Shown here one piece after another: positions 13,691-32,674 of a stretch of DNA of 64,000 nt. The DNA comes from Bacteroidota bacterium (GTDB taxonomy: Bacteria > Bacteroidota > Ignavibacteria > UBA10030 > UBA6906): the NCBI GenBank assembly GCA_019637975.1, contig JAHBUR010000022.1:1-64000 (forward strand). Direction: 5' to 3'. The notes under the pieces were generated by a model. The model searched no databases, was not told the origin of the DNA, and was given only the letters and a program-made list of their open reading frames with translations. The first letter of the stretch is position 1, and each line of letters begins with the position of its first letter. The position numbers and the translations under genes were made by a program.

Positions 13691-15310
13691 ATGCACGGAG
13701 TTGTCAGCAAGTCTATTCCGGTTCGAAACCGATTAGCCGCATTGCTTCGAGCAGGCTTCTTTCTCCTCCCCTGTGTATATGTGTCGTCTTGCGACACGAT
13801 TCAGAACCCGTCCTCATCCGCCCAAGTCTGTACGCCGCTTCTTTCTCAAATCGACGTTGAAACACTCATTTCCCGCGCAGTTGAACAAGCACAACGTCTC
13901 AATCAACGAGTAACTATTGCCGTCTCGGACCGGGAAGGGAACATTCTCGGCGTATTCCGTATGAACGGGGCCCGGTTTGTTTCTGCGCCGCTTACTGTCA
14001 ACAATGCCCCGGTTCAAATTACAACTGTTGATACGTGTATCCGCAAGGCGCGTACCGCGGCCTTCCTGAGCAGTAACGGGCACGCTTTCTCCACGACCAC
14101 TGCATGTTTCATTACGCGTTCTCATTTTCCCCCCGGAGTTGCCAATGCTCCCGGCGGACCATTGTTTGGCGTTGGTTTGTCCAATTTGCCCGGCAGCGAT
14201 ATTATGCCGAACGGCAGCGCGCTGAATGATCTCCCCGGAGGCATCCCTGTTTACAAAGGCGGGTGCCTTGCCGGCGGTATCGGCGTTATCGGTGCCGAAT
14301 CGCAATTCAACCAGTCACTGTGCACGGGAGTCAGTTCCGACGAAGTTATTGCCCTCGGCGCCCTTTCCGGCTACTCTGTGCCGGACGATCGAAGAGGAGA
14401 TCGAATCTTTATCGACGGGATTCGATTTCTCTACACAACTGCCGAAACACCTGCCGGAAATCTCTCGCTGACATTCGCCCAAGCTCTTGCGCTGGGATCG
14501 GTGGATACCGACTATCCGATTCGGGCGACTCCTGCGCAACGTTTTCCGAACGAGGGCGAAGTTCTGCTCGGTGGCGGATTTGACTTTCCGATTGTCGGAG
14601 GATCGGTGTTCACGGCTGCCGAAGTTCAATCGATTGTTCTGCAAGCGAAAACTCAGGCCGAACGGACACGCGCTGCGATCCGTCGTCCGGTTGGGGCGGC
14701 ATCGCAGGTTTTCATTGCAGTGGTTGATGTGGACGGATCCGTTCTTGGAATCTGGCGAACACCGGATGCGACGATTTTCAGCTACGACGTCAGCGTTCAA
14801 AAAGCACGAACAGCTCTTGTGTTCAGCAATCCGAACAATCCCAATCCCCAAAACAATGCCGAGTTCGGTCAGAGAATAAGAACAATTCTCGGCCTGCCTT
14901 CCAGTTCTTCCCTTGCCATAACAACCCGGGCAATCGGCTTTCTCGCACAAGATTTTTTTCCGCCGGGAATCGACAGGGATTCGTTGGGCAACCGGACAGG
15001 GTCGGGTCCGTTGTTTGAAGGAGCAAGCTTCGCCTACCAATTTCGTCTTCTCGCTCAAGGACTTCCTACGTTTGGCCCGAACCGCGGCAACGGCGTCACT
15101 ATTTTTCCGGGCGGGATTCCTTTGTACAAAAACGGCCAGATTGCCGGTGCCATCGGCGTCAGCGGTGACGGAGTTGATCAGGATGATTTGATTGCCGCGG
15201 CCGGGGCAGCAGGATTCGAACCGCCGCTGAACATTCGTTCCGATCAGTTCTTCTATCAAGGCGTCCGGCTTCCGTATGTCAAATTTCCACGCCAGCCCGG
15301 AATACAATGA
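13691..15310 (+). CDS. Lipoprotein with two GlcG/HbpS (DUF336) heme-binding domains
   Basis: A 539-residue protein. The ATG at 13691 follows AAGGGGAG by 4 bases and is preferred to one at 13628. A lipoprotein signal ends at YVSSC (Cys34). Two copies of the GlcG/HbpS fold follow, about 45-250 and 305-525. Each opens with a helix and a strand (VTIAVSDREGNILGVFRMNG; VFIAVVDVDGSVLGIWRTPD) and ends with GGIPVYKGGCLAGGIGVIG or GGIPLYKNGQIAGAIGVSG. HbpS-type proteins bind heme and can sense redox state or iron outside the cell. The stop overlaps the following barrel gene (ATGA), and decaheme cytochrome genes come next, so a role in heme handling or redox sensing at the envelope is likely. This is inferred from context. 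Confidence 0.75.
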   Translation: MHGVVSKSIPVRNRLAALLRAGFFLLPCVYVSSCDTIQNPSSSAQVCTPLLSQIDVETLISRAVEQAQRLNQRVTIAVSDREGNILGVFRMNGARFVSAPLTVNNAPVQITTVDTCIRKARTAAFLSSNGHAFSTTTACFITRSHFPPGVANAPGGPLFGVGLSNLPGSDIMPNGSALNDLPGGIPVYKGGCLAGGIGVIGAESQFNQSLCTGVSSDEVIALGALSGYSVPDDRRGDRIFIDGIRFLYTTAETPAGNLSLTFAQALALGSVDTDYPIRATPAQRFPNEGEVLLGGGFDFPIVGGSVFTAAEVQSIVLQAKTQAERTRAAIRRPVGAASQVFIAVVDVDGSVLGIWRTPDATIFSYDVSVQKARTALVFSNPNNPNPQNNAEFGQRIRTILGLPSSSSLAITTRAIGFLAQDFFPPGIDRDSLGNRTGSGPLFEGASFAYQFRLLAQGLPTFGPNRGNGVTIFPGGIPLYKNGQIAGAIGVSGDGVDQDDLIAAAGAAGFEPPLNIRSDQFFYQGVRLPYVKFPRQPGIQ

Positions 15311-16998
15311 AGCATACTTTTTTGCTCATAAGCGGATTGATTCTGTTGGTTGCTGTTCTCATGAGCATCCGGTCTTTTGCCCAATCATCGAACGAATCAC
15401 CAACATCCGGAACGGATACGCTTTCAACGAAACCACCCGGACTCAAAGACTTCGAAGTGATTGAAGATCGTTGGAGAATTGTTCCGCCGGCTTCCGAATA
15501 CACTGTTGAAGGCGGTGCAGCTGATCCCTACAATCAAAATATCCTGAAGGGCGACTACCCGATTGCCGGTCAGAGTACATTCCTGATTCTCACGGCAACT
15601 GCCGAGAATATCTTTGAAATGCTCACCAACCCGACTCCCATCGGAATCAGCACACGTGAGCCGTCGGGAGATGTATTCTTCGGAGAGAATAACCGGCTCG
15701 TCAACAATTCCTTTGCAAAACTCTCGGTTGAACTATACGGCGGTCAGACGGCATTCCGTCCGCGTGATTGGGAGGTGAAAGCAACTGCCGTCTTCAATTT
15801 GAATTTCACACAATTGAAGGAGTTCAACGGGGTGAACATCAATGTTCGCAAAGGTGACACGAGGACGGAAAACCACGTCGGATTTCAAGAGTTATTCGTT
15901 GAGAAACATCTATTTGATGTGAGCGACAGATACGACTTTGTTTCGCTCAAAGTCGGTATTCAGAAATTCGCCAGCGATTTCAGGGGATTTCTTTTCAACG
16001 ACTTCAATCTCGGGGCGAGACTGTTCGGGAATCTCAACTCGAACCGGATTCAGTGGAATCTCATCTACCTGCCGATGCTGGAGAAGGAGACAAACAGCGA
16101 ACTGAATACCGTGTTCGACCGGCGCAATCAGGATGTCGGCATAGCAAACATCTACATTCAGGATTGGTGGGCACTCGGATACACAACCCAGTTCAGTTTC
16201 CATTTCAATCATGACAAACCGGGCACGCATTACGACGAGAACGGATTTCTCGTCCGGCCTGCGCTTGCCGGCAGCGTAAAGCCGCATGAGATCAAAGCAT
16301 ACTATGCAGGTTGGGCGGGAGACGGCCATTTCGACTGGTTGAATATCACGCACGCGTTCTACCAGGTGTTCGGCACCGATGATTTCAATTCGTTTGCGGG
16401 CAAGAAGATCACCATCAACGCACAAATGGCGGCGCTCGAGCTTTCGGTTGATGACGACTGGCAGCGCTTCAAGATTTCGGGCCTCTACGCCTCAGGCGAC
16501 GACGATATTGCCGATGATGTCGGAAAGGGTTTCGACGCAATTCTTGATGCCCCGTTCTTTGCAGGTGGCGCATTCAGTTACTGGCAACTGCAACGCATCG
16601 GGTTACAGGGGGTGGGACTTGTACAGAAGCTCAGCTTTCTGCCGACGTTGCGCAGCAGCAAACTCGAAGGGCAAGCCAACTTCGTGAATCCGGGACTCAT
16701 TCTTCTGAATGCAGGATACGACGCCGAGATCACTCCCAAAATCAAAACATCTCTCAATCTGAGCTATCTTCGATTTGTGAATACCGCCGTGCTTGTTGAC
16801 TTTCTGAATCAGAATGCGATTCACAAACAAATCGGGGTGGAGGCAAGTCTTGGCATTCTCTACCGCCCGTTTTTGAACAACAATGCAATCATCACGCTCG
16901 GGTTCTCGGCTTTCTCGCCGCTTGCCGGTTTCAAGGACATTTATGAACGGGGGGATATGTTGTATGCCGGAACTCTCGGGCTCGCATTTACATACTGA
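15307..16998 (+). CDS. Outer-membrane beta-barrel protein, possible porin of a porin-cytochrome conduit
   Basis: A 563-residue protein with signal peptide (about 1-25, LVAVLMSIRSFAQ). The body is strand-rich with alternating patterns, for example VELYGGQTAFRPRDWEVKAT and RIQWNLIYLPMLEKE, and it ends LYAGTLGLAFTY with a terminal Tyr as in outer-membrane barrels. No family was recognised with certainty. It is translationally coupled to the GlcG lipoprotein and lies 9 bases before a secreted decaheme cytochrome, the gene order expected for an outer-membrane porin-cytochrome pair. A role as the sheath for electron transfer across the outer membrane is inference from this order. Confidence 0.65.
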   Translation: MKHTFLLISGLILLVAVLMSIRSFAQSSNESPTSGTDTLSTKPPGLKDFEVIEDRWRIVPPASEYTVEGGAADPYNQNILKGDYPIAGQSTFLILTATAENIFEMLTNPTPIGISTREPSGDVFFGENNRLVNNSFAKLSVELYGGQTAFRPRDWEVKATAVFNLNFTQLKEFNGVNINVRKGDTRTENHVGFQELFVEKHLFDVSDRYDFVSLKVGIQKFASDFRGFLFNDFNLGARLFGNLNSNRIQWNLIYLPMLEKETNSELNTVFDRRNQDVGIANIYIQDWWALGYTTQFSFHFNHDKPGTHYDENGFLVRPALAGSVKPHEIKAYYAGWAGDGHFDWLNITHAFYQVFGTDDFNSFAGKKITINAQMAALELSVDDDWQRFKISGLYASGDDDIADDVGKGFDAILDAPFFAGGAFSYWQLQRIGLQGVGLVQKLSFLPTLRSSKLEGQANFVNPGLILLNAGYDAEITPKIKTSLNLSYLRFVNTAVLVDFLNQNAIHKQIGVEASLGILYRPFLNNNAIITLGFSAFSPLAGFKDIYERGDMLYAGTLGLAFTY

Positions 16999-17007
16999 CA
17001 TTCCTGA

Positions 17008-20000
17008 ATGAACCGAATGAGGTACATAGTTGGATTGATGCTTCTTGTTTCGGCAGGAAACGCGCAGGAAGCCGATCTCATGCGCCAATCGCAAGCCGAT
17101 GCCGATCGCAAAAGCAAAGGCTGCGTTACGTGTCACGGCGGCATCGAGCCGATGCACAAGAACACCGCGGTGAAGTTAGGATGCACGGATTGTCACGGCG
17201 GCAATGCCGATGCTGCGACAAAAGATGCAGGACACGTGAAGCCCCGTTTCCCAGCTCGCTGGAAATCTGCCGCGAATCCGCAGCGATCATACACACTTCT
17301 CAATGAAGAGTATCCGGAGTTCGTTCGCTTCGTTAATCCGGGCGATTTGCGTGCAGCGGACAAAGCCTGCGGCCCTTGCCACAACACAGCCGCCGATCCT
17401 ATCGTGCGCAATGTGCAGAAGAGTATGATGACGACTTCGGCGTTGTTGTGGGGTGGGGCGGCGTACAACAATGGTATTCTACCTGTTAAAACTTACATCC
17501 TCGGAGAAAGTTACAGTTGGGATGGAAAGCCGCAACGTATTAATACCGTACCGGCGCCGACACAAGAGGAGATGGAGAAGAAGGGAATCCTTCCGTTTCT
17601 TCTGCCGCTTCCCCGATGGGAAATTACGCAGCCGCCGGATAACTTCAGAAGTTTTGAACGGGGCGGAAAGGTTCCACGCATCAATGCTTCAGAGATAGGA
17701 ATTCCAAATCCGTTGGAGGAGCCGGGCAGGCCTGACAACAAGCTGAGCGACCGCGGCCCGGGCACGCAACTGCGCATCAGTTCGCCCGTGCTCAATATCC
17801 ACAAAACGCGATTGAACGATCCGCATCTTTCTTTTCTTGGGACGAATGATCATCCCGGCGATTACCGTTCCAGCGGATGCACGGGTTGTCACGTTGTGTA
17901 TGCCAATGATCGCTCGCCGTTCAATGCCGGGCCGTACGCGAAGTTCGGCAACCGCGGGCAATCGCAAACAGCCGACACGACAATTTCGAAATCGGCTTCG
18001 GGTCATCCGATCAAACACCAATTCACGAGGTCGATTCCTTCCAGCCAGTGCATGAGTTGTCACATGCACCAGCCGAATTCGTTCGTCAACACATACCTCG
18101 GTTTTCAAATGTGGGATTACGAAACCGACGGCGAGTTGATGTATCCGAAGCAGCAAAAATATCCTTCGGACGCCGAGGCGTTTGCCATTCTCTCCAGGAA
18201 TCCGGAAGAGGCGGTGCTGAGAGGAAACTGGAGTAATGATGAATTTCTGGCGAAGACAAGCGAGTTGAATCCTCAACTCGCACACACACAATTCTCCGAC
18301 TATCACGGGCATGGCTGGGTGTTCAGGGCCGTGTTCAAGAAAGATCGGAAGGGAAATCTGCTCGACAAAGATGGCAGTATTATTCCGTTCAACGCGCCGT
18401 ACAAGTTTGAAGGAGTCGTTCCGGTTGAAGGCGCCACGCCGACGATTCCCTCTCCCGCAAGCAGGAATGCTCAGAAAGCCGTTCATCTGAAGGATATTCA
18501 TCTTGAGAAGGGAATGCATTGTGTCGATTGCCACTTCAAGCAGGATAGTCACGGCAGCGGCAAATTGGTCGGCGAGTTTCATAATGCGGTAGAAATTCAA
18601 TGCGTTGATTGTCACGGCACGTTCTCCGAAAAAGCGACGCTGCGAACATCCGGAGTTGCGGCGCCGTCGGGCGGAACGAATCTCGCTGATCTCTACACAC
18701 CGTTCAGCGAGCGGCGGTTCAGAAAGGCGGGAGGAAAAATCGTGCAGCGTTCGTCCCTTGTCGATACACTGCAGTGGGAAGTCCTGCAAACTGTTGATCT
18801 TCACTCAAAAGAATCGCAGGCTTACAACGCCAAAGCGGAGGCCGCTCATTTGATGATGAAGGATGGTACGATCGGCAAGCCGGGTACGGACGAAAACCTG
18901 TTCGCCCATTCCTACAAGAAAATGGAATGTCAAAGCTGCCACACGTCGTGGATTACGAATTGCTTCGGGTGTCACCTTCCCCAACAGGCGAACTGGAAGA
19001 AGCAGATGAATCACTATGAGGGTGAGGTCTCGCGCAACTGGACGACCTACAATCCGCAAGTGTTGCGCGATGACGGCTACATGCTCGGCCTGACAGGGAC
19101 GACAAAGGGAAGCAAGATTACAACTGTACGTTCATCAAGCGCGTTGATTCTCAGTTCGGTGAATGCAAATCGTGAGCAGATTTACAACCAACAGGCGCCG
19201 ATCTCATCGCCCGGTTTCAGCAGTCAAGCATTCAATCCGCATTTTGCGCATACGGTCCGCTCAACGGAAACCCGTACGTGCACGGACTGCCACGTGTCGT
19301 CGAAGAACGACAATAACGCGTGGATGGCGCAGTTGCTCCTTCAGGGAACAAATTTCGTCAACTTCATGGGCAAGTACGCGTATGTTGCGGGAGGCGCCGG
19401 TGGCGTTGCGGCTGTTCAGGTGACGGAGGGAGATGAACCGCAAGCCGTTATAGGAAGTTACCTGCACAGTCTGGCCTTCCCTGACTATTACAAGGCACAT
19501 CTCGCCGACAAGAAGACTCTGCAAGCAGTGTACTCGCACGGTGGTACTGTGTTACGGGCAGAGCTACGCGGAGAATATCTCTATGCAGCGTGCGGCGACG
19601 ATGGTTTCCGAGTTTATGATGTAGCGAACATCGACAACAAGGGTTACTCTGAACGCATCGTGACAGCTCCCGTTTCGCCGCTCGGACAACATACGCGGGT
19701 CAAAACAACATACGCGACCGCCGTTGCATTGCCGACGAACATGCCGATTGATACACGACGGAAAGTCAGGCCTGAGAATCAGGAGCAGGGGCCGCTGCAT
19801 CCGCTGTACAGCTACGCGTACATCACCGACAAGTCTGAAGGGCTGATTCTCGTTGATGTCATGAATCTTGTCGATGCCGATCCGCGAAATAACTTCTTGG
19901 AAAGGGCGCTGACATACAATCCGGGCGGCGTACTCAACGGCGCCGTCAATCTGACGATCGCCGGGAATTATGTCTACATTTGTGCCGATAGGGGAATCGT

Positions 20001-20685
20001 GGTTGTGAATATCGGGAATCCGCTGCAACCTCGCATTGTGAAAGAGATTGGCGCGCCGTTCATTCGTAACCCGAAAGCAGTGGCCGTTCAGTTCCGATAT
20101 GCTTTTGTGTGTGATGAGGAGGGCGTGAAGACCATCGACCTCACAAACAATGAAGATCCCAAACCTGTTGCAGGAGGTACGCTGGCTTTACAAGGCGCCA
20201 ACGATATCTACGTTGCCCGGACGTACGCGTACGTTGCAGCGGGGCGGCAGGGACTCGTAATAGTCGATGTCGAGAATCCGGAAAAGATGAAGTTGGAGAA
20301 AATCTTCACCGCCGATGGCCAAATCAACGATGCTCAAGGAGTGAAAGTCGCCTCAACGAACGCAAGTCTCTTTGCCTACGTTGCCGACGGCAAAAACGGA
20401 TTACGGGTCATTCAACTGACCTCACCCAAAACCGTTCCGGGTTTCTTGGGGTTCAGTCCGGCTCCAGCCCCGGTCCTGATTGCTTCGCGCAGAACTCCGG
20501 GTCGGGCAGTATCGATTTCGAAGGGGATGGATCGTGATCGCGCAGCGGATGAAAGCGGCAATCAGGTAAGCGTTTTCGGGAGATTGGGTTCCCGTCCGTT
20601 TACACTCCCGGAAATGCAGAAGATGTATCTGAAAGACGGAAAATTGTGGACTGTCTCTGATGACGGCAAAGTAATCAGAAAATAA
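17008..20685 (+). CDS. Secreted decaheme c-type cytochrome fused to an LVIVD-repeat propeller
   Basis: A 1225-residue protein with a short signal peptide (to about residue 19). Ten CXXCH motifs lie between residues 39 and about 760: CVTCH, CTDCH, CGPCH, CTGCH, CMSCH, CVDCH, CVDCH, CQSCH, CFGCH and CTDCH. From about 785 to 1140 there are LVIVD-type repeats, for example GFRVYDVANID, GLILVDVMNL, GIVVVNIGNP and GLVIVDVENP, predicted to form a beta-propeller, a common extracellular binding or docking module. The protein could carry electrons from the periplasm to the cell surface, with the propeller contacting a partner or substrate. Upstream is a beta-barrel gene, downstream another cytochrome. 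An enzymatic role cannot be excluded, since some octa- and decaheme proteins are reductases. Confidence 0.85.
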   Translation: MNRMRYIVGLMLLVSAGNAQEADLMRQSQADADRKSKGCVTCHGGIEPMHKNTAVKLGCTDCHGGNADAATKDAGHVKPRFPARWKSAANPQRSYTLLNEEYPEFVRFVNPGDLRAADKACGPCHNTAADPIVRNVQKSMMTTSALLWGGAAYNNGILPVKTYILGESYSWDGKPQRINTVPAPTQEEMEKKGILPFLLPLPRWEITQPPDNFRSFERGGKVPRINASEIGIPNPLEEPGRPDNKLSDRGPGTQLRISSPVLNIHKTRLNDPHLSFLGTNDHPGDYRSSGCTGCHVVYANDRSPFNAGPYAKFGNRGQSQTADTTISKSASGHPIKHQFTRSIPSSQCMSCHMHQPNSFVNTYLGFQMWDYETDGELMYPKQQKYPSDAEAFAILSRNPEEAVLRGNWSNDEFLAKTSELNPQLAHTQFSDYHGHGWVFRAVFKKDRKGNLLDKDGSIIPFNAPYKFEGVVPVEGATPTIPSPASRNAQKAVHLKDIHLEKGMHCVDCHFKQDSHGSGKLVGEFHNAVEIQCVDCHGTFSEKATLRTSGVAAPSGGTNLADLYTPFSERRFRKAGGKIVQRSSLVDTLQWEVLQTVDLHSKESQAYNAKAEAAHLMMKDGTIGKPGTDENLFAHSYKKMECQSCHTSWITNCFGCHLPQQANWKKQMNHYEGEVSRNWTTYNPQVLRDDGYMLGLTGTTKGSKITTVRSSSALILSSVNANREQIYNQQAPISSPGFSSQAFNPHFAHTVRSTETRTCTDCHVSSKNDNNAWMAQLLLQGTNFVNFMGKYAYVAGGAGGVAAVQVTEGDEPQAVIGSYLHSLAFPDYYKAHLADKKTLQAVYSHGGTVLRAELRGEYLYAACGDDGFRVYDVANIDNKGYSERIVTAPVSPLGQHTRVKTTYATAVALPTNMPIDTRRKVRPENQEQGPLHPLYSYAYITDKSEGLILVDVMNLVDADPRNNFLERALTYNPGGVLNGAVNLTIAGNYVYICADRGIVVVNIGNPLQPRIVKEIGAPFIRNPKAVAVQFRYAFVCDEEGVKTIDLTNNEDPKPVAGGTLALQGANDIYVARTYAYVAAGRQGLVIVDVENPEKMKLEKIFTADGQINDAQGVKVASTNASLFAYVADGKNGLRVIQLTSPKTVPGFLGFSPAPAPVLIASRRTPGRAVSISKGMDRDRAADESGNQVSVFGRLGSRPFTLPEMQKMYLKDGKLWTVSDDGKVIRK

Positions 20686-20702
20686 CCGGGCGTGACTGTT
20701 CA

Positions 20703-21662
20703 GTGAAACGTGTTCTGTATCCCATCACTCTCTTCAGCGTTGTGACTCTTTTGCCGGTCTACGCATGGAGTCAGAAGTATCAAACACTCGGCCCCGCCGG
20801 ATGCGGTGTCGGGCAGAACAACTGTCACGCCGCCGACAACAAGAACATGATCGATAAGCACAAGAACTCGGTCGATGATATTGCAGATAGCGAAGATGCG
20901 AGAAAATATGCTGAACTCTCGGGCATCGGCGCTGCAAATTATCTCAAGGGATCATCGAAGTGCATGGAGTGTCACGGCACAATCATTTCAGGAAAAGAGA
21001 GCAAGGACGTTGAAGAAGGTGTAAGCTGCGAAAGCTGCCACGGGCCCGGCAGCGGATACAAGGACGTTCATCAGGAAGGGAAGTACGCTCCGGGCACGAT
21101 TCGCCCCGGCTACACAAAGTCCCTCCCGCTTGGCTTGCTTGATATCAAACAGGACTTGAACGCTCGGGCAAAAATGTGCGTGCGTTGCCACTATCTGACA
21201 GATCAGAAGATTCTTGCCGCAGGCCATCCCTCCGGAGAGAAATTCAACTACCGTTCGGGAATGAAATCCGTTGCCAAGCATTGGCGGCATCCTATCACCG
21301 ATGAAGATCAAAGCGTAAAATACTTTGCGGATGCAAAGAAGGTACGGGGACCCGCAACAGCAGGGCCTGCACCAAAACCCGCCGGGAAGCCGGGCAACGC
21401 AACGGTAGGCGTACAATCCGTTTCCGGGCAAAGCGTTACGGACATTGATCAAGAAGGGGATTCAGCCCCGCGTCAACGCGTGCGCAGGCCGCCGCCACCT
21501 CCGAAGCCCGTGCCGGCCGATGTAAGCGCCGCGCCGCCTCCCCCAAAGGAGCCGATTGTGCTTCCGCCGTTTCCGGCAATCACCGACAGCACCCGGGTAG
21601 ACTCGGTGTTATTATTGTTGAAGCAGCGGCTTGAGTTGTTGTACAGGAAAACCGGCGGGTAG
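20703..21662 (+). CDS. Periplasmic multiheme cytochrome, c554-like, with Pro-rich tail
   Basis: A 319-residue protein starting at GTG 20703, with signal peptide ending near AWSQ (23). Three canonical CXXCH sites are at 87-91, 109-113 and 159-163 (CMECH, CESCH, CVRCH). A fourth site, Cys34 to Cys41-His42 with six residues between the cysteines, sits where cytochrome c554-type proteins have their first heme. The region from about 215 to 290 is Pro-rich (RRPPPPPKPV, APPPPKEP), followed by a helix at the end (VDSVLLLLKQRLELLYRK). It is likely a periplasmic electron shuttle, with the tail spanning peptidoglycan or binding partners. It lies 17 bases behind the decaheme-propeller gene. Heme attachment at the odd site is uncertain. 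Confidence 0.8.
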   Translation: MKRVLYPITLFSVVTLLPVYAWSQKYQTLGPAGCGVGQNNCHAADNKNMIDKHKNSVDDIADSEDARKYAELSGIGAANYLKGSSKCMECHGTIISGKESKDVEEGVSCESCHGPGSGYKDVHQEGKYAPGTIRPGYTKSLPLGLLDIKQDLNARAKMCVRCHYLTDQKILAAGHPSGEKFNYRSGMKSVAKHWRHPITDEDQSVKYFADAKKVRGPATAGPAPKPAGKPGNATVGVQSVSGQSVTDIDQEGDSAPRQRVRRPPPPPKPVPADVSAAPPPPKEPIVLPPFPAITDSTRVDSVLLLLKQRLELLYRKTGG

Positions 21663-24209: not shown

Positions 24210-25787
24210 ATGGCAAAGCAGAAAGACGAAAGCAGAAAGAAAGGAACCTTCGGCGATGTCCGGTTGCCGGTGACGAAGAAGTACGTGTTTCCCCTCTCCC
24301 GAAAACTGTTGATGATCGCGGGCGGAATTGGTTGCGCCCTGATTGCATTGTATTACGCGGGGGATGCCCTGATTCTCGACAACACATTCATCTCAAGCGG
24401 CGATCTTTCATCCAACCATTCACAATTCGAGGCAAATTGCACCGGCTGCCATCAATCATTTGCAGGCGTTACAGACTCGAAATGCTCCACGTGTCATGAA
24501 AAGGCAAACGACAAATCAGGCGTGTACACGTTTTCTGCTCACTATCTGTATCGCTCGGAAGATGTCGGCAGGATTGGCGCAGCGAAAGAGAAGCACGCAT
24601 CCGACGAACAACGGTGCGCGAGCTGCCATCCTGATCATAAGGGAAGAGATGCGGCAATTACCCGAACTCCTGATTCAAAATGTGCATCGTGCCACTTCTC
24701 ATCGTTCAACAGCAATCATCCTGAGTTCGCGTTTGCCCGTACAACTACGCCGGATGATTCGACATTGAAGATGACGCACGTTCTGCACACGAAAGAAGTG
24801 CTGAAGCTGCTGAAAACGCCGAATGCTGAGCAGGCGTGTTTATATTGTCACGAAGCCCAACCCGACGGCAAAGGATTCAAGTCTCTGGACTTCGAGGCAC
24901 ATTGCGGAGATTGTCATCTGACGGCGAATGTCGAGACGCCCTCGCTTGCAATCAAAGACGCTGCAAATCCTTCCTCCATCGGTGTTGAGACGCTCGAGAT
25001 GATTCAGCGACGACGCGGGCCCGGTACGACATGGGCTTTCTACACAAACCCGAACGAGTTTACTGTGAGCGGCTCCCGCGTCAAGAAATCGCCCGTGTAT
25101 CATCGCGATCCGTGGATTCTTGAAAACCTCAGGCAGCTGTACCGGCTTATACATTCCGATTCGACTTTGGCTGATCTGCTGGCCGCTTCCGGTCAGGGAA
25201 CGACGAGAAGCAAAGAAGGCGTGTATCGCGAGGCCATCAAGACTCTTCAGGATTACGTGATTGGTTTGCGTTCGCGCCCTGAAGTTGAGATTCAGCGGGA
25301 GTTGACGATGATAGACTCATTGCTGAAAGAGGCGCAGCAACGGATTTCATCAGGCGAGACTGTTCCGGAACTCCCGGGCCTTGCGCATAGTGTCAAAGCA
25401 GCCGTTCAGCGTCAAGAGATTGAGGAGTTTGCAGAAAAGGTAGCGAAGCCCTGTCTCGAATGTCACTTTGTGCAGGGTGCATCAATCCTTAACGTCAAGG
25501 CAGGCCAGCGTTCGTTTCTGCGTGCAGAGTTCGATCATCGGGCGCATATCATTCAACGGCGGTGTCTCGATTGCCACAATGTGATTCCTGTCGAACGGGC
25601 GCTCGCTGGCGATACGACGGGTGTTGCCGCAATCGACAAAGCAACAACCCACAACCTTCCGAAACTCGACAACTGCACGGAATGTCATACACAAAGTGCC
25701 GGGTTGAGCAACTGCGTGTCGTGCCACTTCATGCATCCGAATAAGCAGAATCGCGGCAGTCTGCAATTGTTTGTTGAGAGGAAATGA
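24210..25787 (+). CDS. Membrane-anchored decaheme c-type cytochrome
   Basis: A 525-residue protein. The ATG at 24210, 5 bases after the cytochrome b stop, gives a short basic cytosolic segment and one N-terminal membrane helix (about 30-52, LLMIAGGIGCALIALYYAG). Longer in-frame starts overlap the previous gene and are rejected. Ten CXXCH motifs follow: CTGCH, CSTCH, CASCH, CASCH, CLYCH, CGDCH, then after a 200-residue helical gap CLECH, CLDCH, CTECH and CVSCH. Many additional His residues could be distal ligands. The heme domain should face the periplasm and receive electrons from the b-type partner. The stop overlaps the FHA gene (ATGA). It resembles cytochrome c3 / class III multiheme families. 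Confidence 0.85.
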   Translation: MAKQKDESRKKGTFGDVRLPVTKKYVFPLSRKLLMIAGGIGCALIALYYAGDALILDNTFISSGDLSSNHSQFEANCTGCHQSFAGVTDSKCSTCHEKANDKSGVYTFSAHYLYRSEDVGRIGAAKEKHASDEQRCASCHPDHKGRDAAITRTPDSKCASCHFSSFNSNHPEFAFARTTTPDDSTLKMTHVLHTKEVLKLLKTPNAEQACLYCHEAQPDGKGFKSLDFEAHCGDCHLTANVETPSLAIKDAANPSSIGVETLEMIQRRRGPGTTWAFYTNPNEFTVSGSRVKKSPVYHRDPWILENLRQLYRLIHSDSTLADLLAASGQGTTRSKEGVYREAIKTLQDYVIGLRSRPEVEIQRELTMIDSLLKEAQQRISSGETVPELPGLAHSVKAAVQRQEIEEFAEKVAKPCLECHFVQGASILNVKAGQRSFLRAEFDHRAHIIQRRCLDCHNVIPVERALAGDTTGVAAIDKATTHNLPKLDNCTECHTQSAGLSNCVSCHFMHPNKQNRGSLQLFVERK

Positions 25788-26728
25788 TGAAGGCGCGATT
25801 GTTCTGCAAAACAGGTCAGTTGGCCGGAGCCTCGTTTGAAATCGGCAGGGAGGCAACTATCGGCAAGGCTCCGGGGAATTCGATTCAACTCTATCCGCAG
25901 TCAATTTCAGGGAACCATGCGCGCATCTTCTTTGATGAAAAAGAGAAGAAGTACATCATCGAAGATCTCGGTAGTCGTAACGGTACCCGTCTTGATGGCG
26001 TCCGTGTCCGGGGAAGAGAACGCCTCAGCGAATTGCATATTATCACTTTTTCAAACACGTTTGATTTTCTCTTTCAGGTGATGGAAGATTCCTCGCAACA
26101 GCAGAACAATAAACCCGATGAACAGGCGATACAGAAGCAGGCTCCTCCCAAGGCCTCCGTTCCTGATCGGAAGACGAAAATCAGCGATGAATTCGTTCCC
26201 CTTCCCTCACAATCCAACAAAGAAGAGCGTGCCGGTCAAGGAACCGAAGAACGGCAGAAGACTGTCTTTGACGATGGTGCCTTCTCGCTTCCGGCATTTC
26301 AAGAGATCCGGGAGCAACCCGTTTCGGAAGATGTCCAACGCACGAAAGTCGGGATTGATTTCACGCCTGTTCCTTCATTTGTCGAACCTTCGAAACCACC
26401 GAAACCTGCCGCTCCGGAATCGTTGCCGCATTACGTTTTGATTTTTGAGGGATTGAAAGGAGGGCCCGCTGCGTTCGACCTGAAGGAAGGCTCTATGATC
26501 GTAGGTCGTGAACAATCATCCGCCATATTCATTGATGATGGTTCGATGTCGCGCAAACATGCAGAGTTCGTGTTGAAGGAGGGAACGCTGACGCTGAAAG
26601 ATCTTGGAAGCAAGAATCATACGTATATCAATAATCAGAAAATTTCGAAAGAAGTTGAAGTGAGGGAAGGAATAAGCATCACGTTTGGCATTGTCAAGGC
26701 GCGTCTCGTCAGAAAGCCTTCAAAATGA
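25784..26728 (+). CDS. Tandem FHA-domain protein
   Basis: A 314-residue cytosolic protein with two forkhead-associated domains, about 24-90 and 238-300. FHA modules bind phosphothreonine. Domain 1 has IGREATIGK, Ser42 and His45 (SGNHARI) and Asn66-Gly67 (GSRNGT). Domain 2 has VGRE, SRKH (256-259) and Asn278, but Gly is His279 (SKNHT). The linker (100-215) is polar and Pro-rich and includes KTVFDD (Thr160), which fits the pThr-x-x-Asp preference of FHA domains and recalls the phospho-switch tail of GarA-type proteins. Both ends overlap neighbouring genes (ATGA). The kinase and phosphatase encoded three to four genes downstream are plausible partners. Confidence 0.85.
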   Translation: MMKARLFCKTGQLAGASFEIGREATIGKAPGNSIQLYPQSISGNHARIFFDEKEKKYIIEDLGSRNGTRLDGVRVRGRERLSELHIITFSNTFDFLFQVMEDSSQQQNNKPDEQAIQKQAPPKASVPDRKTKISDEFVPLPSQSNKEERAGQGTEERQKTVFDDGAFSLPAFQEIREQPVSEDVQRTKVGIDFTPVPSFVEPSKPPKPAAPESLPHYVLIFEGLKGGPAAFDLKEGSMIVGREQSSAIFIDDGSMSRKHAEFVLKEGTLTLKDLGSKNHTYINNQKISKEVEVREGISITFGIVKARLVRKPSK

Positions 26729-29016
26729 CAAGCGTAACGTACTCGGCCGATGGTTCGCTGGTATTGAACACGCCGACAGCGCTACCCGGCGTTCTCGACC
26801 TTCTTATTGTCGGAGGAGGCCCGGCAGGAACTGCCGCAGCTTTCCGGGCGAAAGAACTCGGCCTCAATGCGTTGGTGATTGATTATGACGATCTCATGAA
26901 GCGCATTCGTGATTATCCGAAGGACAAGTTGATTCTTCCCGATTTCGGCGGCGGAGACCGGATGCGTTTTCCGAAGGGCGGCAACCTCATCTCAGCGCTG
27001 CACTTCTCCGCCATTGACAAAGATGAGATGGTGGATGAATGGAAGCGCCTGTATGTTGCAAACAGCATTCCCGCTCAAATTGGAATCGAATTGCTCGGAC
27101 TCCAACGTCGCGGTGATGGCGTGTGGCAAGTGAAAACGTGGAATCACAACACGAAATCGGAACAGACGATTCCGGCCAGACATATTGCCGTCGGAATCGG
27201 GCGCGGCGTGCCGCGACGATTTGACATTCCGGGCAATACAGACGGGATCGCCTACCGGCTTGCCGACGCGCATGCCAATGTGAATGGCCCGGCGCTCGTA
27301 ATCGGCGGAGGAACTTCGGCTGCCGAGGCTGTTATTGCCATCTCCAATGCAAAAGTAAAAGCAAACGAATCATCGGCGGTGTACTGGTCGTATCGCGGCG
27401 ACAAACTTCCCAAGGTTTCCAAGGCTCTCGCCGATGTGTTCTTTGAAGCGTACATCGGCAACGGTAATATCCGCTACTTTCCCAACAGTGAGCCGGTGGC
27501 AATTGTAACTGCGGATGACAAACGGGAATATCTGTCGCTCAGAACCGATCGCAAGTCGATTCCCGGCCGCCCGAATGAAACGTCGCATCTGGAGTTTTCC
27601 AAAGAACTTTGCATAGCCTGCATCGGCGAGGACATTCCCGAGGCGTTTCTCAATTCTCTCGGTATCAGGATGGTGACCGGCGGCCCCGCAAACAAGAAGC
27701 GAATGTGTGTCACGTCTCTTCTTGAAACTCAACAACCGAACGTGTATCTCATCGGCGACATACTCAGCCAGGTCTATCTCGAAACACAAGATTTCAATGC
27801 CGATCCGTCAACATTCCGGGAAGTAAAACACAGGGGCAATATCAAGGCGGGAATGATTGACGGGGTTATTGTCGCGGAAATCGTTGCCCAGCGGGTCGCA
27901 GGAAAGAAAGAGATCGAAGTGAACGTCCAGCTTGCGGATGAAGCGCCAACGTCGGATCAACCGCCGGTTCCCCTATCTCCCCTCATGACCGTGTTCTCTA
28001 AAATCACGGAGCCGCCGCAGGAAAAGACGCCGGACAAAGGGGCGTACCTTGTCCGCCTGACGGCCGGCGGAGTAGAGGAAGATGAGTTTGCAGTAAATAT
28101 GAATGGCGTTACAACGATCGGACGAAAATTCTGCGATATTGTATTTCCGGAGGACGCAAATCTCTCGGAACGTCACGCCTCAATTTCACATAGCGGAGAC
28201 GGGTTCTCGCTGCGTGACGACGGAAGCCAGACAGGTGTATTTTTGCGAACAACCGAAGCGAAGCCGGTGGAAGTGACCGACGGGGACCTGGTGAGATTGG
28301 GCAGACAGTTTCTTATCTTCAGGCAGGAAAACGGACAGCCGGCATTTTTCCATTACGATCAATCCGGAAAACAGGTCGGTAAATATTTTCCGGCACAAGA
28401 AAAAGCCATTGTACTTGGTCGCGAAGCTCCAGATATTACGCTTGATGCCAAGGATATGACCCTTTCCCGGCGGCACCTTTCCATCGCTACCAAAGACCGG
28501 AAGGTGTTTATCAAAGATCTCAAGAGTGTTAACGGCACGTACCTCAAGGTTCGTAATGCCGTCCGGATCGAACCCGGGGAAATGTTCCGCGTCGGGAGTC
28601 AGGCGTTCAGACTAGACTTGCAGGAAGAGATCGTCGTTGATCGGGTTCGGGTGACAACGAAGGCGCCTTCTGTAGCGAAGCCTGTCGCAAAACCTGTTGA
28701 ACCGGTTTCTGCCCCGGCCGCATCCGGGATGGTGGTTATCTTCAAGGGTCTCGACAAAACAGTCCCGTTCGACCCCGGGCAAACCATTTGTACTGTTGCC
28801 GAGAATAGTGGAATCAAGATTGTTGCAGAATGCCATGCAGGAATTTGCGGCAGCGATCCTGTCAGGATTATTTCGGGCGGAGAACATCTGAATCCGGTTG
28901 GTGAGGATGAACGTGGAACGCTCGAAGACATTTGCGGTCTAAAACCGGGCGAGTGCAGGCTTGCATGCATGGCGAAGCCTTCAGGCGCCGTTGAACTGGA
29001 GATACTTGCTTCGTGA
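26725..29016 (+). CDS. FAD/NAD(P) oxidoreductase fused to two FHA domains and a ferredoxin-like domain
   Basis: A 763-residue multidomain protein. Residues 20-400 form a two-dinucleotide-binding flavoprotein of the YpdA/thioredoxin-reductase type, with FAD site IVGGGPAGTAAAF (28-40), NAD(P) site VIGGGTSAAEAV (about 192-203) and VYLIGDILSQVYLE. The redox CxxC of TrxB is absent. FHA A lies at about 458-515 (GRK, SERH, but no Asn-Gly) and FHA B at about 560-615 (GRE, SRRH, VNGT). The C-terminus (668-763) looks like a plant-type [2Fe-2S] ferredoxin with Cys703, Cys708 and Cys748, but the third expected Cys is Asp711. Extra Cys are at 737 and 744. It is probably the cytosolic electron entry point, recruited or gated by phosphothreonine (inference). 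Confidence 0.8.
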   Translation: MTSVTYSADGSLVLNTPTALPGVLDLLIVGGGPAGTAAAFRAKELGLNALVIDYDDLMKRIRDYPKDKLILPDFGGGDRMRFPKGGNLISALHFSAIDKDEMVDEWKRLYVANSIPAQIGIELLGLQRRGDGVWQVKTWNHNTKSEQTIPARHIAVGIGRGVPRRFDIPGNTDGIAYRLADAHANVNGPALVIGGGTSAAEAVIAISNAKVKANESSAVYWSYRGDKLPKVSKALADVFFEAYIGNGNIRYFPNSEPVAIVTADDKREYLSLRTDRKSIPGRPNETSHLEFSKELCIACIGEDIPEAFLNSLGIRMVTGGPANKKRMCVTSLLETQQPNVYLIGDILSQVYLETQDFNADPSTFREVKHRGNIKAGMIDGVIVAEIVAQRVAGKKEIEVNVQLADEAPTSDQPPVPLSPLMTVFSKITEPPQEKTPDKGAYLVRLTAGGVEEDEFAVNMNGVTTIGRKFCDIVFPEDANLSERHASISHSGDGFSLRDDGSQTGVFLRTTEAKPVEVTDGDLVRLGRQFLIFRQENGQPAFFHYDQSGKQVGKYFPAQEKAIVLGREAPDITLDAKDMTLSRRHLSIATKDRKVFIKDLKSVNGTYLKVRNAVRIEPGEMFRVGSQAFRLDLQEEIVVDRVRVTTKAPSVAKPVAKPVEPVSAPAASGMVVIFKGLDKTVPFDPGQTICTVAENSGIKIVAECHAGICGSDPVRIISGGEHLNPVGEDERGTLEDICGLKPGECRLACMAKPSGAVELEILAS

Positions 29017-29795
29017 AGTCTATTCTCTTTGCAGGGAAAAGTGATGTAGGAATGGTTCGATCCGAGAACCAGGATGCCTTTGCCAAATTCCCTGAGGATG
29101 ATCTCGATCTTTCCGGCCCCAGGGGACAACTCTTCATAGTTGCCGACGGCATGGGAGGTCATGCGGGAGGACGAGAGGCAAGCAGGCTTGCCGTTGAAAC
29201 AATCGGCGAATCGTACTTTGCGTCGAACGGCTCTGTAGTAGCCGGATTGAAGAAAGCCTTTACCGACGCGAACCGCGCCATCTACGAATACAGTCTTCAT
29301 CATCCGCAATTTCACGGGATGGGAACCACATGCATAGCGCTGGTCATTCAGAAGGGAGCCGCGTATGCGGCTCACGTCGGCGACAGCAGGTTGTATCGAA
29401 TTGCATCCAAACGCATCGACCAACTTACCAATGATCATTCCAAAGTTGCGGAAATGGTGAGACGCGGGCTTATCACGGCAGAAGAAAGCAAGGCTCATCC
29501 TGAACGTTCGATGTTGTACCGTGCTATGGGCGTTCGAGCGGATTTTGACTACGATCTTCTCAATGGTATTGAGTTGGGTGGTGACGAGTATTTCCTGATG
29601 TGTACCGACGGGCTGACATCGTATGTTGAGGATGAAGAATTGAGGGACATTGTACTTTCCAATTCGCTGCAGAAATCATGCGACAAGCTTGTTGATCTTG
29701 CAAAACAACGCGGCGGACATGACAACATTACGGTTCAGATCATTCAGGTCAAGGGTTCGGAGAGTTTCTTGAAATCAGTTTTCAGATCGAGATAA
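29013..29795 (+). CDS. PP2C-family Ser/Thr protein phosphatase
   Basis: A 260-residue cytosolic phosphatase starting at GTG 29013, overlapping the preceding stop (GTGA). Metal-binding motifs of the PPM family are all visible: SDVGMVRSENQDAF (Asp21), VADGMGGHAGG (Asp45-Gly46), AAHVGDSRLYRI, MCTDGLTSYV and GGHDNITV. Length is normal for a stand-alone bacterial PP2C (PrpC/PstP type). It would remove phosphate from Thr residues placed by the kinase encoded 3 bases downstream, and so reset FHA binding in the two FHA proteins upstream. Targets are inferred from position. Confidence 0.93.
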   Translation: MKSILFAGKSDVGMVRSENQDAFAKFPEDDLDLSGPRGQLFIVADGMGGHAGGREASRLAVETIGESYFASNGSVVAGLKKAFTDANRAIYEYSLHHPQFHGMGTTCIALVIQKGAAYAAHVGDSRLYRIASKRIDQLTNDHSKVAEMVRRGLITAEESKAHPERSMLYRAMGVRADFDYDLLNGIELGGDEYFLMCTDGLTSYVEDEELRDIVLSNSLQKSCDKLVDLAKQRGGHDNITVQIIQVKGSESFLKSVFRSR

Positions 29796-29798
29796 GCG

Positions 29799-31592
29799 AT
29801 GCAGCAATCCATCATCGGCAAAGTGATCGACAATTACGAGATCACCGGCATCCTCGGCAAGGGCGGAATGGGTGTTGTGTACAAAGCGAAGGATATGACG
29901 CTTGACCGGGATGTCGCCCTCAAAATGATGGATGCGAACTTTGCTCGGGACGAGGATTTTCTCAAGCGCTTCAAATCCGAAGCCAAGGCTCTTGCAAAAT
30001 TGCAGAACTCGAACATCGTGAGCGTGTTTGCGTTGCGTGAAACGGAGATCGGCTTCGCGCTGGTGATGGAATTTGTGGAAGGAAACACTCTTGCCGACCG
30101 CATCCGCATGAACGGCGCGCTGCCGCTGAACAAGACTCTGCCCATTTTCAAGCAACTTCTTACTGCGCTCGATCACGCTCATCGTCTGGGAATCATCCAC
30201 CGCGATATCAAGCCGGGCAACGTCATGCTGACGCCGCAGGATGTGGTCAAGGTGACGGATTTCGGCCTTGCAAAAATCCAGCAGGTTTCCAGCGCAACCG
30301 TGACGATGGGAACAGGTGGTACACTGTACTACATGTCTCCCGAGCAGATACGCGGGCTCGCCAATGTAGATGCACGCGGCGACGTGTACTCGCTCGGCAT
30401 GACGCTGTACGAGACGGTGACGGGGCGTGTTCCGTTCGGGAACAACGCAACAGATTTTGATATTCGCCAGATGATTGTTGAGGGGAAAATTCCGCCCGCG
30501 GACAAATTCAATCCTTCTCTCCCGAAGGAAATCGTAAAAGCGATCTCCAAATCCCTCGAAAAAGATCCTGCAAAGCGATTCCAGTCTGCCGCCGAAATGT
30601 GGGACATGTTGTCACGTGTGGATGTTGGAAAAGCGCCGGCCGCGGAGGAATCGACGGGGCAGCCAATTCTTCCCGCCCCGAACCTTAAGAAACAGACGTC
30701 CACACGGCGTCCGCTGTACTTGACACTCGGTGCGGGAGCAACGCTCATTGCGGTGTTGTTCGCTCTTCGACCAGTACTTTTTCCGCCGGATGCAACGCTC
30801 TCTGTTCAATCCGATCCCGCCGGCTCAAAGGTGATGCTCAATGGAAAACTTGTGGGTACGACGCCGCTCAAAAGTCTTTCTGTTGATCCCGGAAAGATTT
30901 CCGTACGGGTTGACCGTGAAGGGTACTATGTAAAGGATACATCCTTTATGCTGTCCGAAGGCCAGGTGTTCGGGCTTTCTCTTGCCCTGAACAAGCTTCC
31001 CGAACAGATCGTTACGGAAGAAAAACCCGGGCTCACCGGCGAGGATCGTGCCTCAACGAAGGATGGAGCCCTGGAGAGTGAGACTGCCAGCATAAAGCCT
31101 GCGCGCGAGGAAACGCAAACGTCACGACCGGTTGATTCCAAGCCCGTTGGTTTCGGTACCTTACAACTGGCGATGGTTCCTGACGGATCGGTTTCGATTG
31201 ACGGATCGAGGTCAAGCATCGGAAAAAGCGGAATGTCCTTTCAGGCTGCGGCCGGCGATCGTGTTGTGGTGTTTGAACATCCGCAATACGGAACCAAACG
31301 CACAACCATCAAAGTGAAACCGGGCGAAACGGAAGCTCTTACATGTTATTTTGAAACATACTTCAGCATTGTCGTACAGGGTGATGCATCAGGGGGGATG
31401 ATTTCGGTGAACGGTAAGACCACGGATATCTTCGCGCCTGTTGCACGATTTCCACTCGGGCCGGGAAGACATCGCGTTACTGTAACCAGGTTCGGATATG
31501 AGACGCAGGGAGGGGAAAGGGAAGTTCTCGTGTCTCCCTCCTTCGAAGAAAAGACGGTTCCGTTGACGTTTACATTGAAGAAAGAAGGGTAG
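29799..31592 (+). CDS. PknB-type Ser/Thr kinase with C-terminal PEGA domains
   Basis: A 597-residue membrane kinase. The catalytic domain (about 11-275) has [11 protein letters not shown] (20-30), Lys42 (VALKMM), catalytic HRDIKPGNV (about 134-142), DFG at about 154 and MSPEQ for the activation loop, with several Thr in [10 protein letters not shown] as autophosphorylation candidates. One membrane helix follows at about 303-322 ([18 protein letters not shown]). Outside the membrane, PEGA repeats are recognisable ([20 protein letters not shown]; a second with SIDGS and a third with [11 protein letters not shown]). The extracytoplasmic PEGA part may sense or bind an envelope ligand. It lies 3 bases after the PP2C gene, in the redox operon. 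Confidence 0.93.
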
Positions 31593-31648
31593 AAATGCCG
31601 TTCAAATTGCGAAGTGGAAAGTCTATTTTCAAACCAAGGGAGGAAGCT

Positions 31649-32674
31649 ATGATTCGTTTTTTGCGGTGTATTCGTGTCGTGTTCATTTGCGTCCTGTCGT
31701 TTGGCGCGAGCATTGTAGCTCAAGCGCAAGGCGATGGCGTCAAACGATGGGAGGAGGCAATGAAGTGGTACAGCTCCGCCAATTTCGACAAGGCGATTGA
31801 AATTCTCGCGCCAATGGCGGATGATGTTTCGGTGGACAAGAAGATCAGGAAGAATGTCCTTCTTGCATTAGGCCGCTCGTACGTCGCGAAGGGAGATAAG
31901 AAGCAGGCGACAGATGCGATGATCAAGTTGCTTGAACTTGAACCCCCGATAATCGAGCCTGATCCCGATACAGAAGCTCCCCCGCTTCTCAAAGTGTATT
32001 ATGAAGCACGGAAAACCAAGTCCGGAACGTTGCAAGTTGAGCAACGGCCCGATCCGGGCATCAAGACCATCGCAATTCTTGATTTCAAGAACCGCTCAGT
32101 TGACGACAAGGACAAGTACGATCCGCTGGAGAAGGGTTTCGCGGAATTGATGATCGATCAACTCAATGGTTCGGTTGATCTGAAGGTGATCGAACGTGAG
32201 CGCATCCAATGGATTCTGGAAGAAATAGGGTTGGAAAACGATCCAACCAAGTTCGACCAGTCGTCGGCCGTGCGTGTCGGGAAGCAGCTTGGGGTGCATA
32301 CGATTCTGCTGGGAAGCTTCATCAAAGTGAAGAACAATATGAAACTTCTTGCCCGATTGGTGAAGGTCGAAACAAGTGAAATACTTGCGACCGAACAGGC
32401 TGACGGCAAGGCGGATGATTTCTTCGAGATTGCCGAGAATCTCAGTCTCAAAGTTGCCAAGAAAATCAACGCAACCCTGACCAAGGCTGAAATTCAGAAG
32501 GGGAACGAAACTAAATCCCTGGATGCAATGATGTCGTATTCCGAAGGCCTCGTAATGCTGGAAAAAGGCAACTACAAAGGCGCCTACGACAAATTCATGC
32601 AAGCGCTGGAAATGGATCCGAAGTACGACAAGGCAAAAATGAAGGCGGAAAGCCTCAAGCCTTTGCTCGGATGA
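31649..32674 (+). CDS. CsgG/FlgO-like protein with TPR segments
   Basis: A 341-residue periplasmic or outer-membrane protein. The ATG at 31649 follows AAGGGAGG by 6 bases and begins a clean signal peptide (to AQAQ), so it is preferred over 31595. Residues 25-95 and 285-335 are TPR-like helices (AMKWYSSANFDKAIEIL; GNYKGAYDKFMQALEMDPKY). In between (about 130-285) is a CsgG-like alpha/beta domain: TIAILDFKNRSVDD, LKVIERERIQWILEEIGLE and LGVHTILLGSFIKVKNN. CsgG relatives form outer-membrane pores or bind envelope ligands. The location behind the PEGA kinase suggests an envelope sensor or assembly factor; its job is unknown. Confidence 0.75.
   Translation: MIRFLRCIRVVFICVLSFGASIVAQAQGDGVKRWEEAMKWYSSANFDKAIEILAPMADDVSVDKKIRKNVLLALGRSYVAKGDKKQATDAMIKLLELEPPIIEPDPDTEAPPLLKVYYEARKTKSGTLQVEQRPDPGIKTIAILDFKNRSVDDKDKYDPLEKGFAELMIDQLNGSVDLKVIERERIQWILEEIGLENDPTKFDQSSAVRVGKQLGVHTILLGSFIKVKNNMKLLARLVKVETSEILATEQADGKADDFFEIAENLSLKVAKKINATLTKAEIQKGNETKSLDAMMSYSEGLVMLEKGNYKGAYDKFMQALEMDPKYDKAKMKAESLKPLLG

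Follow-up and report, generated by a model that had tools for sequence, protein, structure and literature searches.

Introduction

In the MtrCAB and Geobacter Omc/Ext conduits, the gene for an outer-membrane barrel lies beside genes for periplasmic and outer multiheme cytochromes, and ExtB is predicted to have 18 strands (PMC6148476). The Geobacter extHIJKLMNOPQS cluster, which serves selenite and tellurite reduction, likewise combines a porin and several multiheme cytochromes with a cytochrome b of the inner membrane and an Fe-S protein; the last two are a bc-type cytochrome b and a Rieske protein (PMC5877670). At the cytoplasmic membrane, complexes of the Hmc, Nrf and Nar type use a cytoplasmic four-cluster ferredoxin (the NrfC/HycB-type subunits) to feed a membrane b cytochrome. 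In the OdhI and GarA switches, metabolism is controlled through an FHA domain that responds to the phosphorylation of Thr by Hanks kinases. Here a gene cluster is described from ‘the window’, a 64,000-nucleotide stretch of contig JAHBUR010000022.1 (positions 1 to 64,000, assembly GCA_019637975.1) from a Bacteroidota bacterium of the Ignavibacteria. As judged from sequence comparisons, this cluster on balance probably encodes a trans-envelope electron conduit that is fed by NAD(P)H and whose assembly or gating depends on FHA domains.

Results

The gene cluster of the window

The source genome (4.25 Mb, 98.65% complete) carries in the window a run of thirteen genes on the + strand, extending from 13628 to at least 34062 with gaps of no more than 83 nt and several 4-nt overlaps. 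Domain searches assign redox, barrel, FHA, PP2C, kinase and CsgG/TPR families along 13628-34062, as follows (AF2, AlphaFold2; TM, transmembrane segment).

13628..15310, +, HbpS-like lipoprotein (three PF03928 stretches, 2.3e-29; VSSC lipobox by eye; start possibly the ATG at 13691)
15307..16998, +, outer-membrane beta-barrel, ~18 strands (AF2 model, Foldseek, VIA)
17008..20685, +, decaheme cytochrome with LVIVD-repeat propeller (10 CxxCH; PF08309, 3.9e-19)
20703..21662, +, periplasmic multiheme cytochrome, 3 CxxCH + CX6CH (PF13435, 3.2e-07)
21723..23366, +, cytoplasmic protein with two CNB domains and four [4Fe-4S], ‘CNB-FeS’ (PF00027, 1.1e-30; Fer4 matches)
23368..24204, +, four-to-five-helix diheme cytochrome b (invariant His pairs; no Pfam match)
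24210..25787, +, N-terminally membrane-anchored periplasmic decaheme cytochrome (10 CxxCH; N-terminal TM)
25784..26728, +, FHA1, two FHA domains and a Thr-motif linker (PF00498, 4.5e-35)
26725..29016, +, FAD/NAD(P)H reductase-FHA-FHA-[2Fe-2S] protein, ‘the flavoprotein’ (PF07992, PF13738, PF00498 twice, PF00111)
29013..29795, +, PP2C phosphatase, accessory (PF13672, 2e-17)
29799..31592, +, membrane Ser/Thr kinase with PEGA domain, accessory (PF00069, 2.1e-52; PF08308, 4.7e-22)
31595..32674, +, CsgG-like + TPR periplasmic protein, accessory (PF03783, 7.4e-08; also in Zixibacteria L053)
32758..34062, +, second CsgG-like + TPR lipoprotein, accessory (PF03783, 2.8e-05; also in L053)

An initial annotation, made from the sequence of the window, had placed a kinase/FHA-controlled electron conduit at 15307-32674. 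The domain searches found all of the proteins that it listed to be encoded there on the + strand, and the extent of the cluster needs to be enlarged at both ends by the HbpS-like gene (13628-15310), whose last 4 nt are shared with the barrel gene, and by the second CsgG gene (32758-34062). The description of these genes as mostly start-stop-overlapping was too strong: three of the ten junctions overlap by 4 nt and the others are gaps of 1-60 nt. Promoter and terminator signals in the cluster were not above the expectation from shuffled sequence, and it is the gene spacing alone that points to a single transcript.

Conservation of gene order and co-occurrence

A flavoprotein profile scanned against 84,980 species genomes identified 52 loci, all of which are titled metagenome-assembled or uncultured. 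These belong to Ignavibacteria/Chlorobi, KSB1, Zixibacteria, Acidobacteriota, Gemmatimonadota and Rhodothermota, and further to Calditrichota, Nitrospirota (Troglogloeales), Myxococcota, Planctomycetota and Binatia, and overall the gene set recurs in about ten bacterial phyla. Moreover, a gene order of multiheme cytochrome, CNB-FeS protein, cytochrome b, anchored decaheme, FHA1 and flavoprotein is conserved. This six-gene order is kept in Ignavibacteria, KSB1, Zixibacteria, Acidobacteriota, Gemmatimonadota, Rhodothermota, Calditrichota and Nitrospirota, and a rearranged, divergent version of the set is found in Myxococcota. In a set of 56 loci, which includes a few near-duplicates from the same genomes and in which many contigs are short and many loci truncated, the flavoprotein was present in 56, the anchored decaheme in 43, the cytochrome b in 38, the CNB-FeS protein in 35 and the small multiheme cytochrome in 27; an FHA1-type signal was also present in 56, which is an upper bound because the FHA1 profile detects the FHA domains of the flavoprotein as well. 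An apparent absence of the inner core from three Myxococcota loci (L091, L097 and L089) was rejected when a divergent copy was located in their genomes; for L095 (Planctomycetota) there was only a 40-bit match.

The flavoprotein tree is mostly grouped by phylum, with 11 label changes where the minimum possible is 9, which indicates that the system is old and has been inherited mostly with the lineage. The pairwise distances of the core proteins correlate with one another (r 0.45-0.83) and, for each pair, none of 500 permutations gave a value as high; this is as would be expected for co-inherited genes. In a sample of 395 genomes from the phylum to which the window belongs, the flavoprotein, the cytochrome b (>380 bits) and the decaheme (>700 bits) occur in the identical five genomes, which belong to four families, with the next-best matches all below 70 bits. 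Similarly, in 297 Acidobacteriota genomes the flavoprotein, in eight copies, and a cytochrome b scoring at least 299 bits occur in the same seven genomes, and each flavoprotein copy shares its contig with such a cytochrome b only a few kb off. The search for conserved co-occurrence proposed in the initial annotation thus revealed core genes that co-occur exactly, and in order across phyla, and the scattering of homologues that would have refuted that annotation was not what the genomes showed.

The inner core

Active-site conservation was read from alignments of 11-52 sequences per family. The CNB-FeS protein contains 16 invariant Cys residues in four groups, for four [4Fe-4S] clusters, and resembles solved 4x[4Fe-4S] subunits in the PDB (HycB3, 5.8e-17; NrfC, 3.4e-11), and the domain search gave no Rieske match for it. 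The iron-sulphur half of its original description as a cyclic nucleotide (cNMP)-type/4x[4Fe-4S] protein is therefore sound. The cNMP half is less secure: in the first CNB domain, 93% or more of the window-type sequences have Gln184 in place of the phosphate-binding Arg, making cNMP binding by this domain doubtful. This Arg is retained in a fused type from Acidobacteriota and Sphingobium (see below). The CNB domains of the window branch look degenerate, and loss of the Arg from the first of them suggests that this branch probably relies on FHA domains and not on a cyclic nucleotide.

The cytochrome b displays two invariant His pairs in a 20-sequence alignment, H88-x13-H102 and H257-x13-H271, and this spacing is the pattern of a diheme b cytochrome with two predicted stacked hemes. 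Domain and PDB sequence searches with this protein returned no Pfam match and no convincing PDB relative; its Sphingobium homologue has a weak match to cytochrome b561 (PF01292, 1.4e-4). The anchored cytochrome has an N-terminal TM followed by ten CxxCH motifs, all of which are invariant in the alignment, as are the ten of the propeller cytochrome, and the first description of both proteins as decaheme is correct.

The flavoprotein conserves GGGPAG (FAD) and GGGTSAAEA motifs, as in thioredoxin-reductase-like NAD(P)H flavoproteins, and retains C703, C708 and C748 in its [2Fe-2S] domain. At the end of its NAD-binding domain C299 is invariant, and C296 is present in 41 of 52 sequences. The nearest named relative of the source genome is ‘uncultured Chlorobi bacterium CHB1’, at 90% identity in the flavoprotein.

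Two outer halves joined to one inner core

A porin-cytochrome arrangement is present in the window, where the gene for the ~18-strand barrel adjoins those for the 10-heme and 3(+1)-heme cytochromes. The AF2 model of the barrel (pLDDT 64.9, pTM 0.67, ~18 strands) matched AlgE both by Foldseek (3rbh, E 2.1e-15) and by VIA (Z 24.4, rmsd 3.1, 351 aligned). A second barrel type, from L086, gave a low-confidence model (pLDDT 55.5). The structure matches for both types are AlgE and OccK-type porins; MtrB was not among the Foldseek/VIA rows for either barrel, an absence that excludes nothing. For the propeller protein, a PDB sequence search gave no convincing relative, and the ExtM model NF040943 scored 88.2 bits against a cut-off of 800. 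The periplasmic cytochrome is multiheme, as first described, with the qualification that its three CxxCH motifs are joined by a CX6CH (C34..C41H42, residues 34-42), a possible heme site that is conserved in several phyla and is replaced by CX2CH in long 8-heme relatives. Indeed, this small protein is a homologue of 7-8 heme proteins in other phyla and aligns with the second half of the 8-heme protein.

The HbpS-like gene co-travels with the barrel and propeller genes in KSB1, Myxococcota, Planctomycetota, Acidobacteriota and Sphingobium. As the outer half of the system, the combination of HbpS, barrel and propeller decaheme is found in the window, Zixibacteria, KSB1, Myxococcota and Planctomycetota. 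An alternative outer half, found in Acidobacteriota, Gemmatimonadota and Rhodothermota, comprises a c554-type multiheme cytochrome, an 8-heme periplasmic protein and a different outer protein of ~500 aa, which has a C-terminal aromatic residue and a barrel-like model. That two distinct outer conduits join one inner core argues for a conduit function, which would predict such an exchange; a chance cluster would not.

Fusions and re-wired relatives

Weaker cytochrome b matches in Acidobacteriota led to four loci (L145, L147, L148 and L151) in which the FAD reductase, two CNB domains and four [4Fe-4S] clusters are combined in one protein of ~790 aa. In the same loci, FHA is fused to the membrane-anchored decaheme, and the HbpS-barrel-propeller decaheme genes follow. 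In KSB1 L131 the CNB-FeS protein is fused to the cytochrome b within a single 827-aa open reading frame (ORF), and in Myxococcota an FHA domain lies inside the CNB-FeS protein; in L128 this gene set also has PP2C and kinase genes as neighbours. Three further candidates were rejected: the cytochrome b/FeS fusions of L072 and L127 are frame-overlap or long-ORF artefacts, and the FHA1-flavoprotein fusion of L063 contains FHA1 only as an in-frame fragment.

The fused FAD-CNB-FeS form is also found on 12 Sphingobium megaplasmids, including pMSHV of the cultured soil isolate S. herbicidovorans MH (L154 16031-32320, corresponding to NZ_CP020539.1 at ~801-817 kb). The Sphingobium set also has the cytochrome b, a decaheme whose N-terminus is FHA-like, the propeller decaheme (51% identity to that of the window over 98%), barrel, HbpS and a 4-heme protein, and a calcineurin-like phosphoesterase (annotated CpdA in AP027315.1) replaces PP2C. 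When 72,556 plasmids were searched, the window cytochrome b matched 11 records and the fused flavoprotein 12, all of them from Sphingobium only, and the propeller protein matched 13, from Sphingobium and one Sphingopyxis. On pMC4 of Sphingopyxis indica (L156 8402-18101) the outer half occurs alone, as multiheme, HbpS, barrel and propeller decaheme genes that adjoin glutamate dehydrogenase and putA.

The fusions join FAD to 4Fe-4S, 4Fe-4S to cytochrome b, and FHA to decaheme, and thereby indicate that neighbouring steps of the proposed chain are physically tied. The chain of parts put forward in the initial annotation gains support both from this and from the ordered co-occurrence of the core genes. 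At the level of sequence, the parts, their conserved cofactor ligands, their co-inheritance and their fusions are shown.

FHA domains, kinase and candidate phospho-control

Five FHA domains are encoded in the source genome, four of them inside the cluster; the fifth is at G000:C57:4953-5141, within a 496-aa frame. The second FHA domain of FHA1 retains the pThr-ligand residues G241, R242, S256, R257, H259, S276 and N278, and that of the flavoprotein retains G565, R566, S581, R582 and N603, with H584 in 42 of 51 sequences. Among the models matched by the FHA1 domains are those of OdhI and FhaB. The linker of FHA1 repeats a motif like [ED][KR]T-x-[VILMF]-[DE]...[LV]P, the window copies being DRKTKISDEFVPLP, RQKTVFDDGAFSLP and VQRTKVGIDFTPVP. 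Across 45 FHA1 linkers, [KRE]Tx[IVLMF] occurs 49 times against 10.1+-3.1 after shuffling, and a PIFDxxRT motif in a variable loop of the CNB-FeS protein is present in 19 of 29 sequences and almost never in shuffles; the sequences are related by descent, and these statistics, which overstate independence, describe conservation and not independent events.

The source genome has five kinase domains, among them that of the cluster PEGA kinase, in which the catalytic HRDxKPxN and DFG are visible. Of ~37 loci whose flanks are long enough to judge, 16 have a kinase gene no more than ~1.1 kb away, a rough count from maps. Such adjacency would rarely arise by chance, given only five kinases in the window genome, with a higher background in the kinase-rich Acidobacteriota. 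PP2C recurs in KSB1, Rhodothermia and Myxococcota loci. FHA is universal across the system, and the kinase, PP2C and CsgG genes, being frequent but not universal neighbours, are considered accessory; of the control apparatus first proposed, it is therefore the FHA part that belongs to every copy. Taken together, the conserved residues, kinase adjacency and Thr motifs make phospho-Thr docking through the FHA domains likely.

The second CsgG gene has a 4-nt overlap with a gene at 34059-38711, which encodes a 1550-aa protein with a DUF5122-like propeller, ASH/HYDIN-type Ig repeats and a type IX secretion system (T9SS) sorting tail. A T9SS-tailed protein is also encoded 3' of the kinase in Rhodothermia L142 (4617-6842).

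Discussion

In the mechanism proposed here, the flavoprotein would oxidise NAD(P)H and pass electrons from FAD via its own [2Fe-2S] to the cytoplasmic 4x[4Fe-4S] protein. The latter would dock on the diheme cytochrome b, whose two stacked b hemes would carry the electrons over the membrane to the anchored decaheme and from there, via the periplasmic multiheme cytochrome, to the propeller decaheme seated with the barrel in the outer membrane, which would deliver them to an extracellular acceptor. The FHA domains of the flavoprotein and FHA1 may bind pThr motifs in the FHA1 linker repeats and in the PIFDxxRT loop of the FeS protein. These FHA-pThr contacts would hold or gate the cytoplasmic part, and the membrane kinase and PP2C would set assembly or flux. 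The detailed electron order, the outward direction, the acceptor and the phospho-control are what we infer: the order FAD-FeS-cytochrome b from the fusions, the remaining order from cellular location and homology, and outward flow from the fact that the cluster encodes no ion pump to drive NAD(P)+ reduction.

Several observations sit uneasily with this scheme. Residue 711 of the flavoprotein, the third [2Fe-2S] ligand, is Asp, an unusual substitution, in 37 of the aligned sequences and Cys in only 4, which come from Myxococcota and one acidobacterium. Other cytochrome b matches in Acidobacteriota lack the window-type flavoprotein, those inspected being mostly re-wired versions. The model of the window barrel is of only moderate confidence, PP2C, kinase and CsgG genes are missing beside many copies of the system, and the shared descent of the linkers tempers the Thr-motif statistics. 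Finally, Sphingobium is generally aerobic, which is a poor fit with dissimilatory respiration.

Other explanations can be set against the same evidence. Since multiheme conduits are able to run in both directions, electrons might flow inwards: a donor outside the cell, be it Fe(II), a mineral or a partner cell, would supply them to the propeller decaheme and barrel, and they would pass through the cytochrome b and FeS proteins to NAD(P)+ or another cytoplasmic acceptor. The FHA-decaheme fusions found here resemble, by description only, a ‘Forkhead-associated protein’ with 10 heme motifs that is present in 27 of 87 iron-oxidiser genomes of a Gallionellaceae pangenome (PMC10734462). However, domain searches saw no ion pump in the cluster for the uphill reduction of NAD(P)+, and the way in which flavoprotein and ferredoxin are combined is suited to oxidising NAD(P)H. 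Inward flow is an unlikely alternative. It is also rather unlikely that the system is an NAD(P)H-powered surface reductase for a specific substrate, serving iron/heme acquisition or metalloid reduction and not respiration. The presence of an HbpS-type (haem-binding/degrading) lipoprotein with the barrel and propeller cytochrome, the plasmid location in Sphingobium and the solitary outer half of Sphingopyxis indica are all in keeping with such a role, and it is the HbpS protein and the aerobic Sphingobium hosts that keep a reductive iron/heme or metalloid function under consideration. The propeller cytochrome also weakly matches ExtM of the Geobacter selenite/tellurite operon (PMC5877670), but the score is far under the 800-bit cut-off, and in many phyla the outer parts give way to another multiheme/barrel pair, which speaks against a single fixed substrate.

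The unusual density of signalling folds (CNB, FHA, PEGA kinase and PP2C) might be taken to mean that the system is mainly a redox sensor, in which the oxidation state of hemes at the surface or in the periplasm is read via the cytochrome b and FeS by the CNB/FHA proteins and signalled to kinases. At least 23 heme motifs, 16 FeS-cluster Cys, a barrel and a flavoprotein would be a costly outlay for sensing, and the conserved core is without an output regulator; this explanation is thus very improbable. A chance neighbourhood of unrelated redox and signalling genes, which would account for the variable accessory genes only, is almost certainly wrong and was rejected for the core genes, given the fusions, the order kept across phyla and the co-occurrence that is exact in two genome samples.

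The trans-envelope conduit, with NAD(P)H as donor, is accordingly the reading retained. More tentatively, it is proposed that the cluster represents an old, multi-phylum pathway from NAD(P)H to decahemes that bypasses the quinone pool, its assembly or flux being switched by Ser/Thr phosphorylation through built-in FHA domains. If correct, one trans-envelope route would be common to Acidobacteriota, Zixibacteria, KSB1, Ignavibacteria, Gemmatimonadota, Myxococcota and cultured soil Sphingobium, and would have been overlooked by screens for extracellular electron transfer, whose marker searches rely on Mtr, Omb, Ext and Cyc2 models. The pathway would, moreover, link signalling to electron flow and would be, to our knowledge, the first trans-envelope electron pathway with phospho-threonine readers fused into redox proteins. 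The Sphingobium version makes the system testable in a culturable soil bacterium.

Overall, the window cluster departs from each of the described systems. Compared with MtrCAB and the Omc/Ext conduits, its cytochromes are from other families, as its barrel may also be, and its outer half is tied to an inner half of its own, which is made up of an NAD(P)H flavoprotein, a 4x[4Fe-4S] protein, a diheme cytochrome b and FHA proteins. It falls outside Geobacter extHIJKLMNOPQS, because the ExtM cut-off is missed and there is no Rieske protein; in place of the latter and the bc-type cytochrome it has a 4x[4Fe-4S] protein and a Pfam-less cytochrome b family, no rhodanese or selenoprotein was seen, and the FHA, CNB and flavoprotein components present here are not reported there. 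In contrast to the Hmc, Nrf and Nar type complexes, it has no molybdenum or hydrogenase subunit, and its four-cluster protein carries fused CNB domains and has an FHA flavoprotein as its partner. The FHA domains, unlike those of the OdhI/GarA switches, form part of a redox enzyme and of a gene cluster for electron transfer. Three loci from other families of Ignavibacteria (L132 8192-17001, L134 1-9332 and L135 1-8090) contain a distant cytochrome b homologue beside a TrxR-like membrane-anchored FAD/2x[4Fe-4S] protein and multiheme cytochromes with 20-61 CxxCH; FHA, CNB, propeller and kinase were not seen there, and these loci may constitute a parallel, unnamed NAD(P)H-to-multiheme system. A search of the open-access literature, incomplete in its coverage, found no paper that joins FHA with decaheme cytochromes as a system, in agreement with the earlier statement that no named system combines all these parts. 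The kind of system is thus a familiar one, the trans-envelope electron conduit, and there is a fair chance that its NAD(P)H-linked, phospho-gated inner half deserves a class of its own.

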